A stretch of DNA of 33,167 nt, from NCBI GenBank assembly GCA_902775105.1, contig CACYLC010000011.1, forward strand, positions 1 to 33,167, in the 5' to 3' direction. This document shows, piece after piece, positions 20,281-26,423 of the stretch. A program made the position numbers and the translations under genes. Within the stretch, counting starts at the first letter, position 1. Each line of letters opens with the position of its first letter. The DNA is from Oscillospiraceae bacterium. Lineage in GTDB: Bacteria; Bacillota; Clostridia; Oscillospirales; Oscillospiraceae. The notes under the pieces were generated by a model. It was not told the origin of the DNA and did no database searches. It saw only the letters and a program-made list of their open reading frames with translations.

Positions 20281-20967
20281 ATGAGAAAGGTACTGGTACT
20301 GGAGGACGAGGCCAATATTCGCAGCTTTGTCGTGATCAATCTGAAGCGGGCGGGCTATGATACGCTGGAGGCATCCAGCGGAGAAGAGGCGATGGAGATC
20401 GTCAAGCGGAATCCGGATATCCGGGTGGCGCTTCTGGACGTAATGCTGCCCGGCATCGACGGCTTTGAGGTCTGCCGCCGCATCCGGGCGGACAATGCCA
20501 AGATCGGCATTATCATGTTGACTGCAAGGACCCAGGAGATGGACAAGGTCACGGGGCTGATGACAGGCGCCGACGACTATGTGACCAAGCCCTTCTCTCC
20601 CGCCGAGCTGACCGCCCGGGTGGACGCCCTCTACCGCCGGACGGGAGGCGAGCCGCTGCTGGAAAACGGCGTCATCCGGCAGGAGCCCTTCCTGCTTAAC
20701 ACGAGAAATCGGACGCTGGAGAAGAACGGCCAGCGGATCAAGCTGACCCAGGTGGAGTATGCCATCATCAAGCTGTTTATGGATAACCCGGGCAAGGCGC
20801 TCTCCAGAGACGAGATCCTGGAGGCAGTTTGGGGCAGAGACTACTTCGGAGAGGTCAAGATTGTGGACGTCAATATCCGCCGCCTCCGCCTTAAGGTGGA
20901 GGACGACCCTCAAAATCCCACCTATATTACCACTGTCTGGGGCTACGGCTATAAATGGGGCTTCTGA
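20281..20967 (+). CDS. OmpR/PhoB-family response regulator
   Basis: A 228-residue DNA-binding response regulator. The receiver domain (1-120) has the acidic pocket Glu9-Asp10... in LVLEDEAN, the phosphorylated Asp53 in LLDVMLPG, Thr/Lys of the switch in MLTART and the conserved Lys in YVTKPFSP. The C-terminal winged helix (about 130-228) includes LTQVEYAIIKLFM and VDVNIRRLRLKVEDDP, ending YGYKW as is usual. GGAGG precedes the ATG. The cognate histidine kinase gene follows at once. Regulated genes cannot be told; the upstream lipoprotein and downstream genes are candidates. Confidence 0.95.
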   Translation: MRKVLVLEDEANIRSFVVINLKRAGYDTLEASSGEEAMEIVKRNPDIRVALLDVMLPGIDGFEVCRRIRADNAKIGIIMLTARTQEMDKVTGLMTGADDYVTKPFSPAELTARVDALYRRTGGEPLLENGVIRQEPFLLNTRNRTLEKNGQRIKLTQVEYAIIKLFMDNPGKALSRDEILEAVWGRDYFGEVKIVDVNIRRLRLKVEDDPQNPTYITTVWGYGYKWGF

Positions 20968-21002
20968 GACCGCATACCCCGGCGGACGGGGAAGGGCGCC
21001 AT

Positions 21003-22580
21003 GTGACAAGGCAGGACAAGGAGGGGAAAGCTGCTCCCGTCCAGAACCTGACAGAGCTGCTCCGGCCGGCGAACCCCTTTCAAAAGGGCATCCGACGCCG
21101 CTGGATGGTCAACAGCGTGGGCGTCATACTGAGTATCGTCATTGTTGTGGTTATCATCTCCGCCATGGCGCTGAGCAGCTACTACTATAACTCCATGCGC
21201 CTGGGCATGGAGGCCAAGGTCAACGCCGCCAGCGAATTTTTCTCCAGCTATGCCTCCAACGAGAAGGAATATCTGGACATGGCGAATTATTATGTAAACG
21301 AATTTGACGAGCGGGACCGTTTAGAGCTACAGTTCATCGACATTCGCAAGCAGCGGGTGGTACTGTCCTCTCTCTCCACCTACGGTCTGAATAATATGAG
21401 CCGAGCCATGACGCCGGACGTCACCTATGCCATGGACAACCAGACCACCGGACACTGGGCAGGTCGGGACGAGAGCACTGGCGAGCGGATTATGGCGGTG
21501 GCATCCCCCATTATCAACCGGGGTGAGGTCAAGGGCGTTATGCGTCTGGTCACATCGCTGTCGGTGGTGGATCGGCAAATCATCTATGTGGTCTGCCTGA
21601 TTATGCTGGGGGGAATGCTGCTGGTGGTGCTGATGTACGCAGTCAGTATCTACTTCATCAAGTCCATCGTGGATCCCATGGCAGGCATCACCGAGACGGC
21701 CAAGCGCATTGCCGGCGGCAGCTACGGCATCCAGATCGAGAAACGCTATGATGACGAGATCGGACAGCTCACCGACGCCATCAATGACATGTCTCTGAAA
21801 ATCAGCCAGAACGAAAAGATGAAGAGTGAGTTCATCTCCTCCGTCTCCCATGAGCTGCGCACGCCCCTGACCGCCATCAACGGCTGGGGCGAGACACTGC
21901 TTTCCGGCGAAATCACCGATCCGCAGGATGTGCAGAAGGGACTGGGCATCATTGTCAGCGAGGGAAAGCGGCTTGCCCAGATGGTAGAGGAGCTGCTGGA
22001 ATTCTCCCGCATCGAGGACGGCCGGTTTACCCTGAATATGGAGACGATCGACATCAAGGCGGAATTTGAGGACGCCGTGTTCACCTACAGCCAGATCTTC
22101 CCCAAACAGGGGATTACCCTGCATCATAACGAGTGCGAAGAGGAGTTTGACCCCATTCCCGGCGACCCCCAGCGGCTGCGGCAGGTGTTCTGCAACCTGC
22201 TGGATAACGCTGCCAAGCACGGCGGCTCCGGCGGCGTCATCCAGACGGCCATTGCCCGGCTGGAGGACACCATCTGTATTACCATCCGGGACTACGGCCC
22301 CGGTATCCCGGAGGAGGAGCTGCCCTTCGTCAAGCGGAAGTTTTACAAAGGCTCCTCCAAGGCCAGAGGCAACGGCATCGGCCTTGCCGTCTGCGACGAG
22401 ATCATTACCCGTCACGGCGGCCAGCTTGACATTGCCAACGCTCCCGGCGGCGGCTGTCTGGTGCGGATCATCCTGCCCCTGACCGCCCCGTCCCCTCAAA
22501 AACCTGCCGCCAGCACAGGAACGCTGCCGCTGGAGGACATCCGTGCCGCGCTGGCAAAACAGTCAGATACAATAGAATGA
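21003..22580 (+). CDS. Sensor histidine kinase
   Basis: A 525-residue membrane kinase partnered with the preceding regulator. Order: basic cytoplasmic tail, membrane segment 1 (about 36-58), an extracytoplasmic sensor region of about 135 residues, membrane segment 2 (about 193-218), HAMP, a HisKA domain with the phosphoacceptor His283 in SSVSHELRTPLTAI, and an ATPase domain with NLLDNAAKHGG, DYGPGIPEEE and GNGIGLAVC. The frame is open from an ATG at 20955 inside the regulator gene, without a ribosome site; the GTG at 21003, six bases after GGGGAAGGG, was preferred. The stop codon directly abuts the first LexA box of the next operon. Confidence 0.93.
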   Translation: MTRQDKEGKAAPVQNLTELLRPANPFQKGIRRRWMVNSVGVILSIVIVVVIISAMALSSYYYNSMRLGMEAKVNAASEFFSSYASNEKEYLDMANYYVNEFDERDRLELQFIDIRKQRVVLSSLSTYGLNNMSRAMTPDVTYAMDNQTTGHWAGRDESTGERIMAVASPIINRGEVKGVMRLVTSLSVVDRQIIYVVCLIMLGGMLLVVLMYAVSIYFIKSIVDPMAGITETAKRIAGGSYGIQIEKRYDDEIGQLTDAINDMSLKISQNEKMKSEFISSVSHELRTPLTAINGWGETLLSGEITDPQDVQKGLGIIVSEGKRLAQMVEELLEFSRIEDGRFTLNMETIDIKAEFEDAVFTYSQIFPKQGITLHHNECEEEFDPIPGDPQRLRQVFCNLLDNAAKHGGSGGVIQTAIARLEDTICITIRDYGPGIPEEELPFVKRKFYKGSSKARGNGIGLAVCDEIITRHGGQLDIANAPGGGCLVRIILPLTAPSPQKPAASTGTLPLEDIRAALAKQSDTIE

Positions 22581-22594
22581 GAAACATTTGTTCG
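22581..22594. promoter_or_regulatory. LexA (SOS) box 1
   Basis: Read on the minus strand this is CGAACAAATGTTTC, a full match to the Gram-positive LexA/DinR consensus CGAACRNRYGTTYC. It lies just upstream of the -35 of the DUF1385 promoter and immediately after the kinase stop codon. Confidence 0.82.
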
Positions 22595-22601
22595 ATTTTG
22601 C

Positions 22602-22630
22602 TTGCAATTCGAACGGATGTTTGATACAAT
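22602..22630 (+). promoter_or_regulatory. Sigma-A promoter of the DUF1385-prmC-recA-recX operon
   Basis: -35 TTGCAA (22602-22607), a 17-nt spacer and -10 TACAAT (22625-22630). The spacer is almost entirely occupied by LexA box 2, so bound LexA would block RNA polymerase. Start expected near 22637. Confidence 0.82.
22610..22623. promoter_or_regulatory. LexA (SOS) box 2
   Basis: CGAACGGATGTTTG matches the consensus CGAACRNRYGTTYC at 13 of 14 positions (the final base differs). It fills the -35/-10 spacer. Its start is 29 bases from that of box 1. Confidence 0.8.
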
Positions 22631-22646
22631 GTCAGGAGATGATCTC

Positions 22647-23612
22647 GTGGAAAAAGAGACACAACCGGCCAGCTTTCGCACGACCATCGGCGGACAGGCG
22701 TTGATCGAGGGCATCCTCATGCGCGGCCCCGAGAAGCAGTCCATTGTCGTCCGCCGCCCGGACGGCGGATTGGAGATCAAGACGGAGGAGCTGAAGCTCA
22801 TTAAGGAGCGCTATCCCGTTCTGGGACTGCCCTTTATCCGGGGCTGCGTCACCTTTTTGGACTCCATGTATAAGGGTGTCAAGGCGCTGATGTACTCCGC
22901 CGACTTCTACCCGGAAGAGGAGGCGGCTCAGCCCGGTAAGTTTGAGGTCTGGCTGGAAAAGCGGCTGGGCAGCGAGGCGTTTAGCAAGGTCATCGTGGGA
23001 TTGTCCGTAGTGCTGGGCATCTGCTTCTCCGTGGGACTGTTTTTCCTGCTGCCCACGGTTTTGACGAATTTGCTCAGTTACCTGATTCCCATGAGCAAGC
23101 TGGCGGTCAGCCTGATTGAGGGCGTCATCCGCATCGCCATTTTCCTCAGCTATCTCATCCTCGTCTCCAAAATGAAGGATATCCGCCGGGTTTTTTCCTA
23201 CCACGGCGCGGAGCATAAGACCATTTTCTGCTACGAGCGAGGTCTGGCGCTGACGGTGGACAACGTCCGGGACATGCCCCGGCACCATCCCCGCTGCGGC
23301 ACCAGCTTCCTGTTCGTGGTGGTGGCCGTGGCCATTCTGGTTCACGCCGCCCTCTTTAGCTTTGTAACTCCCTCCAACGTCTTTGTGCGGATGCTCTTAC
23401 AGCTTGCGACCCTGCCGGTGATCGTGGGCATCAGCTATGAGTTCAACCGTTTTGTCGGCGGACACGACAACGCCGTGACCCGATTGCTCAGCGCTCCCGG
23501 CCTGTGGATGCAAAACTTTACCACGTTTGAGCCGGACGACTCTATGATGGAGGTGGCCATCGAGGCGCTGAAGCAGGTACTGCCCAGTCAGAAGGGGCAG
23601 GATCAGTGGTGA
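22647..23612 (+). CDS. DUF1385 family membrane protein (YqhQ-like)
   Basis: A 321-residue membrane protein of the DUF1385/YqhQ family, whose biochemical function is not established. It begins with the family block GGQALIEGILMRGPEKQSIVVR, has four or five hydrophobic helices (roughly 105-165 and 225-275), and carries the conserved YHGAEHKTIFCYE and HPRCGTSFLF motifs, whose His/Cys/Glu residues could bind metal. The frame is open from 22602, but the earlier ATG codons fall within or upstream of the promoter; the GTG at 22647, nine bases after AGGAG, fits the predicted transcript. DUF1385 next to prmC is a common clostridial arrangement. It is first in a probable SOS-controlled operon ending with recA-recX. 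Confidence 0.92.
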   Translation: MEKETQPASFRTTIGGQALIEGILMRGPEKQSIVVRRPDGGLEIKTEELKLIKERYPVLGLPFIRGCVTFLDSMYKGVKALMYSADFYPEEEAAQPGKFEVWLEKRLGSEAFSKVIVGLSVVLGICFSVGLFFLLPTVLTNLLSYLIPMSKLAVSLIEGVIRIAIFLSYLILVSKMKDIRRVFSYHGAEHKTIFCYERGLALTVDNVRDMPRHHPRCGTSFLFVVVAVAILVHAALFSFVTPSNVFVRMLLQLATLPVIVGISYEFNRFVGGHDNAVTRLLSAPGLWMQNFTTFEPDDSMMEVAIEALKQVLPSQKGQDQW

Positions 23613-23627
23613 TGGGAGTGTCGAACC

Positions 23628-24545
23628 ATGGCGACGACGTATAACAATCTGTATCTGGATCTCCGCCGCAGCTTCCGTCTGGCGGGCATCGAGGCCGCCG
23701 CACTGGAGGCCAGAGAGCTGATCTGCCACGCCGCCCACAAGACGCAGGAGCAGTTCTGGGCGGACATCAACTACTACATTCCCTCCTCCCTCCAACGCGA
23801 GGTGGAGGAGCTGGCCCGCCGCCGTCTGGAGGGAGAGCCTGCCGCCTATTTGCTGGGAGAGTGGAGCTTCTGCGGTCTGGATCTGGACGTGAATCCCACG
23901 GTGCTGATCCCCAGAGCGGACACAGAGGTGGTGGCGGAGCAGGCAATCCGGCGGACGAAAGAGGCGGGGAACATGGCGAGAGTGCTGGATCTCTGCGCCG
24001 GAACCGGCTGTATCGGTCTGGCGGTAGCCACTTATGCGCCGGATTGCCGGGCGGTGCTGGCGGATTACTCCCCCGACGCCGTACGGATCTGCCGGCAGAA
24101 TATCCGAAGAACCGGCAGGCAGTCAAACGTCACCTGTTTTCAGACGGATGCCAGAGACGCACCGCCCAGGCCATTTGGTCAGTTCGACGTCATCGTCTCC
24201 AACCCGCCCTATATCCCCACGGCGGATATCGAGACGCTGGACGAGTCGGTGCGGTGCTACGAGCCCCATCTGGCGCTGGACGGCGGTGAGGATGGATTGG
24301 ATTTTTACCGGGTTATTACCGCAAAATGGAAGCATGCCCTCCGTCCCGGCGGCTGGCTGATCTATGAGGTCGGCATGGGACAGGCAAAGGATGTGGAGGC
24401 GCTCCTGAGGGAGCAGGGGTTCAAGTCCATCTCCAGTTATCCCGATACGGCCGGCATCCTCCGGGTGGTGGAGGGCCGCTGGCTCATTGAAGAAGATGAA
24501 TTTACCCTTTGGAGTCCTGAAAATGGGACTATCACTGTGAAATAA
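23628..24545 (+). CDS. prmC: Peptide chain release factor N5-glutamine methyltransferase PrmC
   Basis: A SAM-dependent enzyme that methylates the Gln of the GGQ loop in release factors, raising termination efficiency. The 305 residues have the N-terminal helical domain, GEWSFCGLDLDVNPTVLIPRADTE, the SAM-binding VLDLCAGTGCIGLAVA, and the diagnostic catalytic SNPPYIPT (Asn192 onward). The ATG at 23628 is 15 bases after the DUF1385 stop. The usual partner prfA is not adjacent; recA follows 31 bases downstream instead. No terminator is seen on either side, so it is probably part of one transcript with recA. Confidence 0.96.
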   Translation: MATTYNNLYLDLRRSFRLAGIEAAALEARELICHAAHKTQEQFWADINYYIPSSLQREVEELARRRLEGEPAAYLLGEWSFCGLDLDVNPTVLIPRADTEVVAEQAIRRTKEAGNMARVLDLCAGTGCIGLAVATYAPDCRAVLADYSPDAVRICRQNIRRTGRQSNVTCFQTDARDAPPRPFGQFDVIVSNPPYIPTADIETLDESVRCYEPHLALDGGEDGLDFYRVITAKWKHALRPGGWLIYEVGMGQAKDVEALLREQGFKSISSYPDTAGILRVVEGRWLIEEDEFTLWSPENGTITVK

Positions 24546-24576
24546 TAAGGACAAATAACAGAGAAGGAGCAACACT

Positions 24577-25719
24577 ATGGCTACGAAAAAACCCACCATT
24601 CGTCCCGCCGCCCCGGCCAGCGACAAGAAGAAGGCGCTGGAGACCGCTGTTGCGCAGATTGAGCGCACTTTCGGCAAGGGCTCCATCATGCGTCTGGGCG
24701 ATAACACCGCCATTCAGGTGGAGAGCATCCCCACCGGTTCCCTGGGGCTGGACATCGCTCTGGGCATCGGCGGCCTCCCCAGAGGGCGAATTATTGAGAT
24801 TTACGGCCCGGAGTCTTCCGGTAAGACGACGCTAGCCCTCCATGTGGTGGCGGAAGCGCAGAAACTGGGCGGCGAGGTGGCCTATATCGACGCCGAGCAC
24901 GCCATGGATCCCACCTACGCCAGAGCGCTGGGGGTGGATATTGACTCCATGCTGATCTCTCAGCCCGACACCGGCGAACAGGCATTGGAGATCACCGATC
25001 AGCTGGTGCGCTCCGGTGCCGTAGACGTTGTGGTGGTGGACTCCGTGGCCGCGCTGGTGCCCCGCGCCGAAATTGAGGGCGAGATGGGCGACAGCTATGT
25101 GGGCTTGCAGGCCCGGCTGATGAGCCAGGCATTGCGCAAGCTCACCGGCTCCATCGGCAAGACGAACTGTATCTGCATCTTCATCAACCAGCTGCGGGAA
25201 AAGGTGGGCGTCATATACGGCAATCCTGAGGTCACCACCGGCGGCCGGGCGCTGAAGTTTTATTCCTCCGTCCGCATCGAGGTGCGCCGGATCCAGACCC
25301 TGAAGGTGGGAGACGAGATGATCGGCAACCACACCCGAGCCAAGGTGGTCAAGAACAAGGTGGCGCCCCCCTTCCGGGAGGCGGAGTTCGACATCATGTA
25401 CGGTACCGGCATCTCCAAGGACGGCGAGATCGTGGACTTGGCCCAACAGCTGGGCCTTGTGGAGAAGTCCGGCTCCTGGTACTCCATGGGCGAGGTGCGC
25501 CTCGGCCAGGGTCGGGACGCCGCCAAGCAGTATATGGTGGATCACCCTGACGTGGCCGAGGAGCTGGAGGCACAGATCCGTGCCAACCTCTACAAGCTGA
25601 TGAGCCGTCAGTCTTTGGTGGCTGCCAAGGCCGCAGGACGCACTGTGGGCGAAGAGGAGCCTGCTGCCGGCGCCGCCGCTCCCAACATCGACGTCTCCGC
25701 CGACGACTTTGAAGGCTGA
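24577..25719 (+). CDS. recA: Recombinase RecA
   Basis: A DNA strand-exchange ATPase and co-protease for LexA self-cleavage. The 380 residues contain Walker A GPESSGKT (77-84), [11 protein letters not shown], the L2-region [20 protein letters not shown] and a short acidic C-terminal tail ending SADDFEG. GAAGGAG precedes the ATG. The 31-base gap from prmC contains neither a promoter nor a LexA box that I can find, although recA is normally SOS-regulated. The paired LexA boxes upstream of DUF1385, about 1.95 kb away, are the likely control point. recX overlaps the stop codon. Confidence 0.98.
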
Positions 25720-26345
25720 TGCCGAAGGTCGATCGGGTAGAACCCTCTAAACACGTCAAGGGCAGGTATCTGGTCTTTCTGGATTCCGGCACATTGGTCA
25801 AGGTTGGGGAGCAGGAGCTGCTGGACTTTGGCCTCCGTCCCGGTCTGGTGCTGGAGGGGGAGGACTTAAACCGGCTGCTCACCTCCAGCGAGGACACTGC
25901 CGCCAAGGAACGAGCCGCCCGGATGATCGGCGCAAGACCGCTGTCCAAGCAGGAGCTGGTGAACCGGCTGGTCTCCAAGGGAGAGGGAGCCTCCTCCGCC
26001 CGGAAGGCCGCCGACTGGCTGGAGGACTTAGGCGCCGTCAACGACGGGGAATATGCCAAGACGGTGGTGCGCCACTACGACCGCATGGGCTACGGCCCCC
26101 AGAAGCTGCGGGACGAGCTGTTTCGCCGCAAGATTCCAAAGGACTGCTGGGACGAGGCGCTGGGAGAGGCGAGACCCCAGCGGGAGGTGGTGGCGGAGTT
26201 TCTGGCGTCAAAATTCCGCTATCGTGAGGTCACGGACAAGGAGCTGCAACGGCAGACCAATGCCCTCCGCCGCCGGGGGTTTAGCTGGGAGGTCATCCGG
26301 GAGGAGCTGCGAAATTACGTCCCTGAGCCGGAGAATTGGGACTGA
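25719..26345 (+). CDS. recX: RecA regulator RecX
   Basis: A small helical-repeat protein that binds RecA filaments and modulates their growth. The 208 residues show the tandem three-helix repeats typical of RecX: RPLSKQELVNRLVSKG, AADWLEDLGAVNDGEYAKTVVRHY, GPQKLRDELFRRKIPKD and the last repeat RQTNALRRRGFSWEVIREEL. The ATG overlaps the recA stop as TGATG, so translation is coupled and expression follows recA. An inverted repeat downstream (26376-26413) might weakly terminate the operon. Confidence 0.93.
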   Translation: MPKVDRVEPSKHVKGRYLVFLDSGTLVKVGEQELLDFGLRPGLVLEGEDLNRLLTSSEDTAAKERAARMIGARPLSKQELVNRLVSKGEGASSARKAADWLEDLGAVNDGEYAKTVVRHYDRMGYGPQKLRDELFRRKIPKDCWDEALGEARPQREVVAEFLASKFRYREVTDKELQRQTNALRRRGFSWEVIREELRNYVPEPENWD

Positions 26346-26375: not shown

Positions 26376-26413
26376 ATTTGGGAGTCAAAGGGTGTTTACC
26401 TCGGCTCCCAAAT
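26376..26413. promoter_or_regulatory. Inverted repeat around the rimO promoter
   Basis: Perfect 9-bp arms ATTTGGGAG (26376-26384) and CTCCCAAAT (26405-26413) with 20 nt between. The right arm lies in the -35/-10 spacer of the rimO promoter. It could be an operator, or a long-loop hairpin ending the recX transcript; no T-run follows. Confidence 0.45.
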
Positions 26414-26423
26414 CTGTTATACT
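26395..26423 (+). promoter_or_regulatory. Probable promoter of rimO-pgsA
   Basis: -35 TTTACC (26395-26400), a 17-nt spacer and -10 TATACT (26418-26423). Leader about 25 nt to the rimO ATG. Confidence 0.6.

Follow-up and report, generated by a model that had tools for sequence, protein, structure and literature searches.

Predicted dual control of recA in an Oscillospiraceae bacterium: a LexA-repressed promoter at the head of the DUF1385-prmC-recA-recX operon and a promoter-like element beside recA that is probably WYL-activated

How can recA be placed under LexA when no LexA box adjoins it and the boxes in question stand nearly 2 kb upstream, before another gene? The question is raised by a stretch of 33,167 nucleotides (nt), hereafter the window, which is contig 11 (CACYLC010000011.1) of the 1.81-Mb draft genome of an Oscillospiraceae bacterium (GCA_902775105.1), where the genes for a DUF1385 protein, the release-factor methyltransferase PrmC, RecA and RecX follow each other closely. 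An earlier note on this DNA had proposed that recA and recX are controlled in the SOS response from two LexA boxes before DUF1385, with no promoter inside the operon. Our comparison with relatives supports a LexA promoter at the operon head, but not as the sole control, since a second promoter-like element adjoins recA. We consider it likely that recA is under dual control, by a LexA-repressed promoter at the operon head and by an adjoining promoter that is probably activated by a WYL-domain regulator.

Both LexA boxes before DUF1385 were found as the earlier note had described them, together with a good sigma-A promoter whose spacer holds box 2 (Table 1). The core pattern GAACN4GTTY has 63 strand matches in the 1.81-Mb genome (139 for the reversed control), and at this rate about 0.002 core matches are expected on both strands of the 66 nt before DUF1385, where two are present. 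The genome carries its own lexA (TIGR00498 at C10:3477-4067, 204.6 bits against a cut-off of 110.95), and the core of box 1, GAACAAATGTTT, recurs at C10:3401, 76 nt before this gene; LexA boxes are also found ahead of uvrB and of a Y-family polymerase gene. The promoter before DUF1385 is overlapped by a predicted operator of the kind found at this genome's lexA. The 12-mer of box 1 is contained in the lexA and recA operators of Clostridioides difficile tested by surface plasmon resonance (PMC4234289). Beside recA the window has no LexA box, as the note had stated, and the one relaxed core match, at -166 (GAGCAGGGGTTC), sits inside prmC. A second LexA-like protein of this genome (L196, C57:325-1142) aligns to the lexA model in the C-terminal part alone, and its gene has a LexA-like box (AGAACGTCTGTTCG) upstream.

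Conservation was followed in a family sample of 120 genomes, of which 110 have recA at E<=1e-60; 100 regions were fetched (omitting the recA genomes G003, G004, G006, G019, G041, G076, G105, G109 and G111) and compared together with the window as 101 loci, and a core box was counted with at most one mismatch in its eight letters and at most 150 nt before a gene. In 89 of the 101 loci DUF1385, prmC and recA are closely consecutive and the region shows the DUF1385 start. A core box precedes DUF1385 in 27 of 95 loci, that is, in 22 of the 30 with RecA at least 74% identical and in 5 of the 65 others. A LexA box beside recA was rejected, as it was found at this threshold in 0/30 loci of the close group and in 3/70 outside it, and no match has the form GAACRRATGTTT; each other gene has a core box before it in 0 to 2 loci of the close group. 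All 27 genomes with the box have lexA, compared with 34 of the 68 loci without it. On the RecA tree, for which three of the 101 RecA rows were too short (two of them box loci), all 25 placed box loci fall into one clade (support 100/94) of 37 rows, which also holds 10 rows without a box and 2 unlabelled. Inside this clade a promoter-like site precedes DUF1385 in 18/35 loci and the gap between kinase and DUF1385 genes has a median of 94 nt, whereas outside it the figures are 7/60 and 21 nt, with a gap of at most 60 nt in 49/55 loci. The genus contributes 27 loci, 23 with a core box ahead of DUF1385 and 11 with a pair spaced by about 30 nt, and a similar layout is shared among genus loci (TTGCAATTnGAACRAATGTTTGATA and variants). 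Among the best 30 lexA loci, 20 show a core match upstream, one of them poor.

Judged by these comparisons, the boxes before DUF1385 are not chance matches, and their conservation in relatives, like the lack of a box before recA, agrees with what the earlier note had expected, the paired arrangement being found in 11 of the 27 genus loci. LexA control of the DUF1385 promoter is a prediction, but a strongly supported one, and because of this support DUF1385 and prmC are very likely LexA-regulated, as the note had also claimed. The same gene order is found outside the family, within the order, where a LexA core precedes DUF1385 in none of the 16 loci that show this region, and a relaxed core precedes recA in 5 of the 16 that show recA. 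Therefore, the DUF1385-side arrangement is not general in the order, and since the gene order is older, the LexA promoter looks like a gain within the family. Two of the five relaxed cores, in L370 (GAACATATGTTG) and L379 (GAACAAATGTTG) of one other family, are LexA-like and directly precede recA, and LexA may adjoin recA there. Because 50 of the 120 family genomes, 27 of 78 among those of good quality, have no lexA match at E<=1e-30, part of the family may lack LexA-type SOS control.

The claim of an operon without an internal promoter is very likely wrong. A GTCC-N8-GGAC repeat, here called the GTCC box, was first noticed in recA upstream regions, with a -10 following after 11 nt, and the window has such an element at 24514-24546, with the palindrome at about -39 to -24, a weak -35 and a -10. 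It is the only GTCC-box site on either strand of the window, and 200 dinucleotide shuffles gave none. Among near genus loci (RecA at least 85% identical) the palindrome precedes recA in 13 of 14, the window counted, and 12 of the other 13 keep a promoter-like element directly before recA. Palindrome and spacing are kept while the gap from the prmC stop to recA ranges from 31 to 78 nt. Eight of these 13 palindromes are wholly intergenic, so coding constraint alone is no explanation; the remaining five, that of the window included, overlap prmC. As the window's palindrome lies over the last prmC codons, it is not recognisable as an intergenic promoter. Across the family, the box with at most one mismatch precedes recA in 12/100 loci, prmC in 0/99, DUF1385 in 1/95, the histidine kinase gene in 0/87, recX in 0/98 and rimO in 0/95. 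In 11 exact palindromes before recA, chosen with the -10 ignored, offset 11 scores at least 4/6 in nine, and any other offset does so in at most two. A form with a 7-nt spacer gave 82 strand matches versus 276 for the reversed control and was replaced by the 8-nt form.

Outside recA, the strict pattern GTCCNNNWTAWNGGAC-N11-TANNNT has 109 matches in 52 of the 120 family genomes versus 6 for the reversed control; in the genome of the window there are three and none, or eight and one when one mismatch is allowed. Immediately downstream of nine strict matches is recA, and immediately downstream of eight is a gene for a WYL-domain regulator; two others (G084:C19, G021:C128) lie within prmC about 200 nt before recA and were not counted as recA promoters. 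Of the 109, 91 were read for downstream open reading frames (ORFs), six having none, which left 85 ORFs; the 18 not read comprise 11 in recA regions already fetched, six before WYL genes and one at a contig end. A simple score of Shine-Dalgarno match and length decided which ORF was taken, which makes some small ORFs doubtful, and genes were named partly from Pfam or NCBIfam and partly by similarity or by eye. The boxes precede a set of DNA-repair genes, i.e., recA, Y-family polymerase, AddB, a PcrA-like helicase, a GyrB-like protein, methylpurine glycosylase and Cas3/Cas5, of which the polymerase, AddB, the helicase, Cas3 and Cas5 are represented by few or single ORFs. The 85 ORFs also include three small XRE-type genes, two M78 peptidase genes, four members of a pseudouridine-synthase family (one tested) and 14 members of one family of about 40 residues (RGHVEVYDxxGRFxFSAD). 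Just before the -10, at positions not used for selection, T and G are favoured (90 and 96 of 155), as in an extended -10. A scan of named genomes, with a pattern that fixed more letters, gave at least 119 stretches, of which 80 were used and 10 of these had no ORF. Among the matches listed, the box is found mostly in Clostridia or their subgroups, with one in Spirochaetaceae and several labelled only as bacterium, and the 70 ORFs read include four RecA-like (two Pfam-confirmed) and three WYL genes (two confirmed).

We infer that the box is bound by a WYL protein. In the best 30 family loci for the WYL gene, 14 have a GTCC box before it, 13 of them at 54-67 nt and one at -143. A WYL gene, scored at E<=1e-25, is present in 46/52 genomes with the motif versus 27/68 without, and in tree-based independent pairs WYL and motif change the same way in 7.2 and opposite in 0.4 (median p 0.03), whereas lexA does not track the motif (3.0 versus 1.3 pairs, p 0.6). 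The products L241, L402 and L449 carry the domains PF13280 (WYL) and PF25583 (WCX). The genome of the window has its own WYL gene at C9:39313-40284, whose product is 53% identical to L241; its nearest solved relatives include DriD (8tp8, E 9e-9) and PafBC (6sj9, E 7e-4), both matched in the C-terminal half.

Table 1. Genes and predicted control elements of the recA region, in window coordinates.
Feature	Position	Strand	Remarks
OmpR/PhoB-type response regulator	20281..20967	+	upstream operon gene; NCBIfam RpaB/PhoB/YycF-type, best 218 bits
Sensor histidine kinase (WalK/PhoR-like)	20955..22580	+	Pfam HisKA, HATPase_c, HAMP
LexA box 1, CGAACAAATGTTTC	22581..22594	-	core GAACAAATGTTT; 0 mismatches to CGAACRNRYGTTYC
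Sigma-A promoter TTGCAA-17-TACAAT	22602..22630	+	predicted from sequence
LexA box 2, CGAACGGATGTTTG	22610..22623	+	1 mismatch to CGAACRNRYGTTYC; within promoter spacer
DUF1385 gene	~22647..23612	+	PF07136, E 1.8e-90; GTG start likely
prmC, release-factor glutamine methyltransferase	23628..24545	+	TIGR03534, 258.6 bits vs cut-off 199.1
GTCC box, palindrome GTCCTGAAAATGGGAC	24514..24529	+	proposed site of a WYL-domain activator
-10-like hexamer AATAAT	24541..24546	+	exactly 11 nt after palindrome
recA	24577..25719	+	TIGR02012, 560.7 bits vs cut-off 325.3
recX	25719..26345	+	three Pfam RecX domains; NCBIfam RecX models under cut-off

The tight packing described in the earlier note (a 15-nt gap, a 31-nt gap and a TGATG overlap) was borne out, and no terminator-like site is present on the + strand from DUF1385 to the recA start. 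Two terminator-like sites were found where 3.4 are expected, and the sole + strand one lies within recA, so that a terminator within the operon was rejected. What the note had missed, besides the element adjoining recA, is the junction upstream of DUF1385: the stop codon of the histidine kinase gene abuts LexA box 1 (22580/22581), no terminator-like site is seen there on the + strand, and the operon may therefore also be transcribed from the two-component genes. The start of this kinase gene overlaps the end of the response-regulator gene, whose product scores under the cut-off for each of the 25 NCBIfam models displayed. After recX the next gene is rimO, which has a putative promoter of its own (TTTACC-17-TATACT, 26395-26423) and so may lie outside the recA operon.

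To hypothesize, the genes from the response regulator and kinase through DUF1385, prmC, recA and recX would form an old operon, of which DUF1385-prmC-recA-recX would be the tail, and a sigma-A promoter repressed by LexA would have arisen between the kinase and DUF1385 genes in one clade of the family. With LexA on box 2 the spacer of this promoter would be covered, probably with cooperative help from box 1, which lies some 30 nt further upstream; upon RecA-driven cleavage of LexA, read-through would induce DUF1385, prmC, recA and recX together. The second promoter, adjoining recA, would be switched on by a WYL-domain regulator in a manner like DriD or PafBC, with single-stranded DNA in the WYL domain leading a dimer to recruit sigma-A polymerase, and with DNA damage as the presumable signal. 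We also favour, by a smaller degree of confidence, a wider reading, in which Clostridia would possess a second, LexA-independent regulon of damage and defence, under an often self-regulated WYL activator at GTCC-N8-GGAC-N11-TATAmT, that would include recA, a translesion polymerase, PcrA, AddB, a topoisomerase subunit, CRISPR-Cas genes and families of tiny proteins; the clade of the window would couple this regulon to SOS, leaving recA with one promoter of each kind.

Taken as a count, the LexA matches carry no weight: with at most two mismatches CGAACRNRYGTTYC occurs six times in the window, which is the chance level (shuffle mean 7.1), and the four matches besides the two boxes all have two mismatches, so the support comes from match quality, position and conservation. 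Several observations weigh against dual control as we propose it. Ten rows within the box clade and 4/27 genus loci, all four in a second sub-lineage, are without a LexA box before DUF1385, and the GTCC box before recA is present in a minority of the family (12/100). In the window it is a match with one mismatch and not a strict one, overlaps prmC codons, and is non-consensus both in its centre (AAAAT, consensus TTTAT) and in its -10 (AATAAT). The second sub-lineage has a GTCC box beside recA in 0/15 loci (one shows only 72 nt) and no LexA box there either. It is quite unlikely, nevertheless, that recA is driven solely from the LexA promoter and that the palindrome is functionless. The conserved boxes and tight packing would suit this, as would the off-consensus, partly coding palindrome of the window, but palindrome and spacing persist in 13/14 near genus loci despite the varying gap, mostly in wholly intergenic positions, and the same element stands before recA elsewhere. 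Very unlikely, in our judgement, is the converse, that DUF1385 and prmC are the selected SOS targets and recA is a mere passenger of the LexA promoter. Ten genus loci keep the LexA box before DUF1385 and do not have recA within about 600 nt after prmC; however, nine of them still have recA on that strand 0.5-1 kb further along, and the tenth genome gave no recA. Moreover, recA is the central SOS gene, and we know of no role in DNA damage for DUF1385 or PrmC. In nine loci of the second sub-lineage (L554, L555 and L557-L563) this spacer of 0.5-1 kb separates prmC and recA, several having GGGCGGCC-rich repeats and some an ORF of about 192 aa; with neither box beside recA, read-through to it is doubtful there. 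Two genus loci without the LexA box, L522 and L523, have a GTCC-N8-GGAC palindrome before DUF1385 in the place taken by the LexA box in other loci, with no -10 at the usual distance by eye.

Transcription entering from the kinase promoter is possible and also counts against dual control, as box 1 follows the kinase stop codon immediately, no terminator-like site is seen on the + strand there, and outside the box clade the short gap (median 21 nt) seldom holds a promoter-like site (7/60). That recA is mostly read through from the response-regulator and kinase genes, with LexA as a roadblock or tuner, is still unlikely, because the box clade gained a promoter layout between these genes (18/35) and kept it in the genus. 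As for the binder, it is somewhat unlikely that the GTCC box is read by a factor other than WYL, such as an XRE or ImmA-linked regulator or an alternative sigma factor. The XRE-type and M78 peptidase genes after the box would fit such a factor, and 6/52 motif-positive genomes have no WYL match. On the other hand, the -10 resembles that of sigma-A promoters, its extended positions favour T and G, and the box is found ahead of WYL genes, whose presence follows that of the motif on the tree. The phylogeny-corrected test is of moderate strength (p from 0.002 to 0.45 over pairings) and covered WYL and lexA among regulator families; the choice of WYL was not blind, as the family had been seen downstream of the motif first. 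The own WYL gene has no GTCC box upstream, 27 WYL-positive genomes are without the strict motif, and many genes after the boxes have no recognised link to damage (TruA-like, LeuA-like by eye, unnamed). With these points included, we still prefer dual control by LexA and a WYL activator.

Four known systems are close to what is proposed here. The SOS system of C. difficile shares the operator core GAAC-N4-GTTT with this genome, and its targets lexA, recA and uvrB correspond to the lexA, uvrB and recA operon predicted here (PMC4234289). However, its operator is at -39/-41 from recA itself, whereas the operator described here precedes DUF1385-prmC at a distance of nearly 2 kb, and recA has an additional non-LexA element before it. 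According to a preprint (PMC12340889), DriD of Caulobacter crescentus is a WYL-domain activator of a LexA-independent damage response; it has a site upstream of its own gene, as some of the WYL genes here have, yet is reported not to activate that gene, its consensus is ATACGAC-N7-GTCGTAT, different from GTCC-N8-GGAC, and recA is not among the targets named in the part seen. The own-genome WYL protein aligns with DriD at residues 170-321 only. PafBC of mycobacteria (PMC11804915, PMC6789036) is a WYL activator of DNA-repair genes that acts by sigma adaptation with the housekeeping sigma factor and a -26 motif, with which the right half-site here may be compared, its position being about -27 to -24 when the -10 is placed at -12 to -7. 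PafBC is, however, a heterodimer at a non-palindromic motif, while the present proposal involves a palindrome and, so far, a single WYL gene. Since GTCC-N8-GGAC matches neither the DriD nor the PafBC operator sequence, the element would work like these systems without being a member of either. In the human-gut SOS meta-regulon (PMC3998124), LexA sites are given before lexA, recA, uvrA/B/D and translesion polymerases, and the words prmC and methyltransferase have 0 occurrences in the main text. Neither this operon arrangement nor a clostridial WYL damage regulon was found in the literature searched, i.e., titles and abstract starts, the best-ranked part of longer result lists and few subscription papers.

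Some further observations concern genes behind GTCC boxes. The family of about 40 residues follows the box directly in L228, L229, L231, L233, L236, L243, L248, L250, L301, L302, L315, L335, L336 and L340 and in loci of named genomes (e.g., L383, L404); in L236 a GyrB-like ORF (by eye) comes after it. Cas3 or Cas5 (Pfam) directly after the box in L290, L307, L334, L347 and L429 hints that CRISPR-Cas is part of the regulon. Another family, uncharacterised and of about 270 residues, is found in L247, L312, L346 and L439, and its one member scanned (L247) gave no Pfam match at E<=1e-5. In the genome of the window, a strict box precedes a GyrB-like gene on C77, with a TTGACA-type promoter also between box and gene (by eye). 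At C20:20187-20236 (L200, L251) of the same genome, one promoter has both a LexA box (CGAACATCTGTTTG, C20:20187) and, a few bases after it, a strict GTCC box (C20:20204). The small protein encoded downstream has about 78 aa, and a damage-induced cell-division inhibitor is our guess for it.

If the proposed dual control is true, recA would have been brought under LexA via a promoter two genes away, and a release-factor methyltransferase and an uncharacterised protein would join the SOS response. It would also give a concrete promoter code by which Clostridia may respond to damage independently of LexA.

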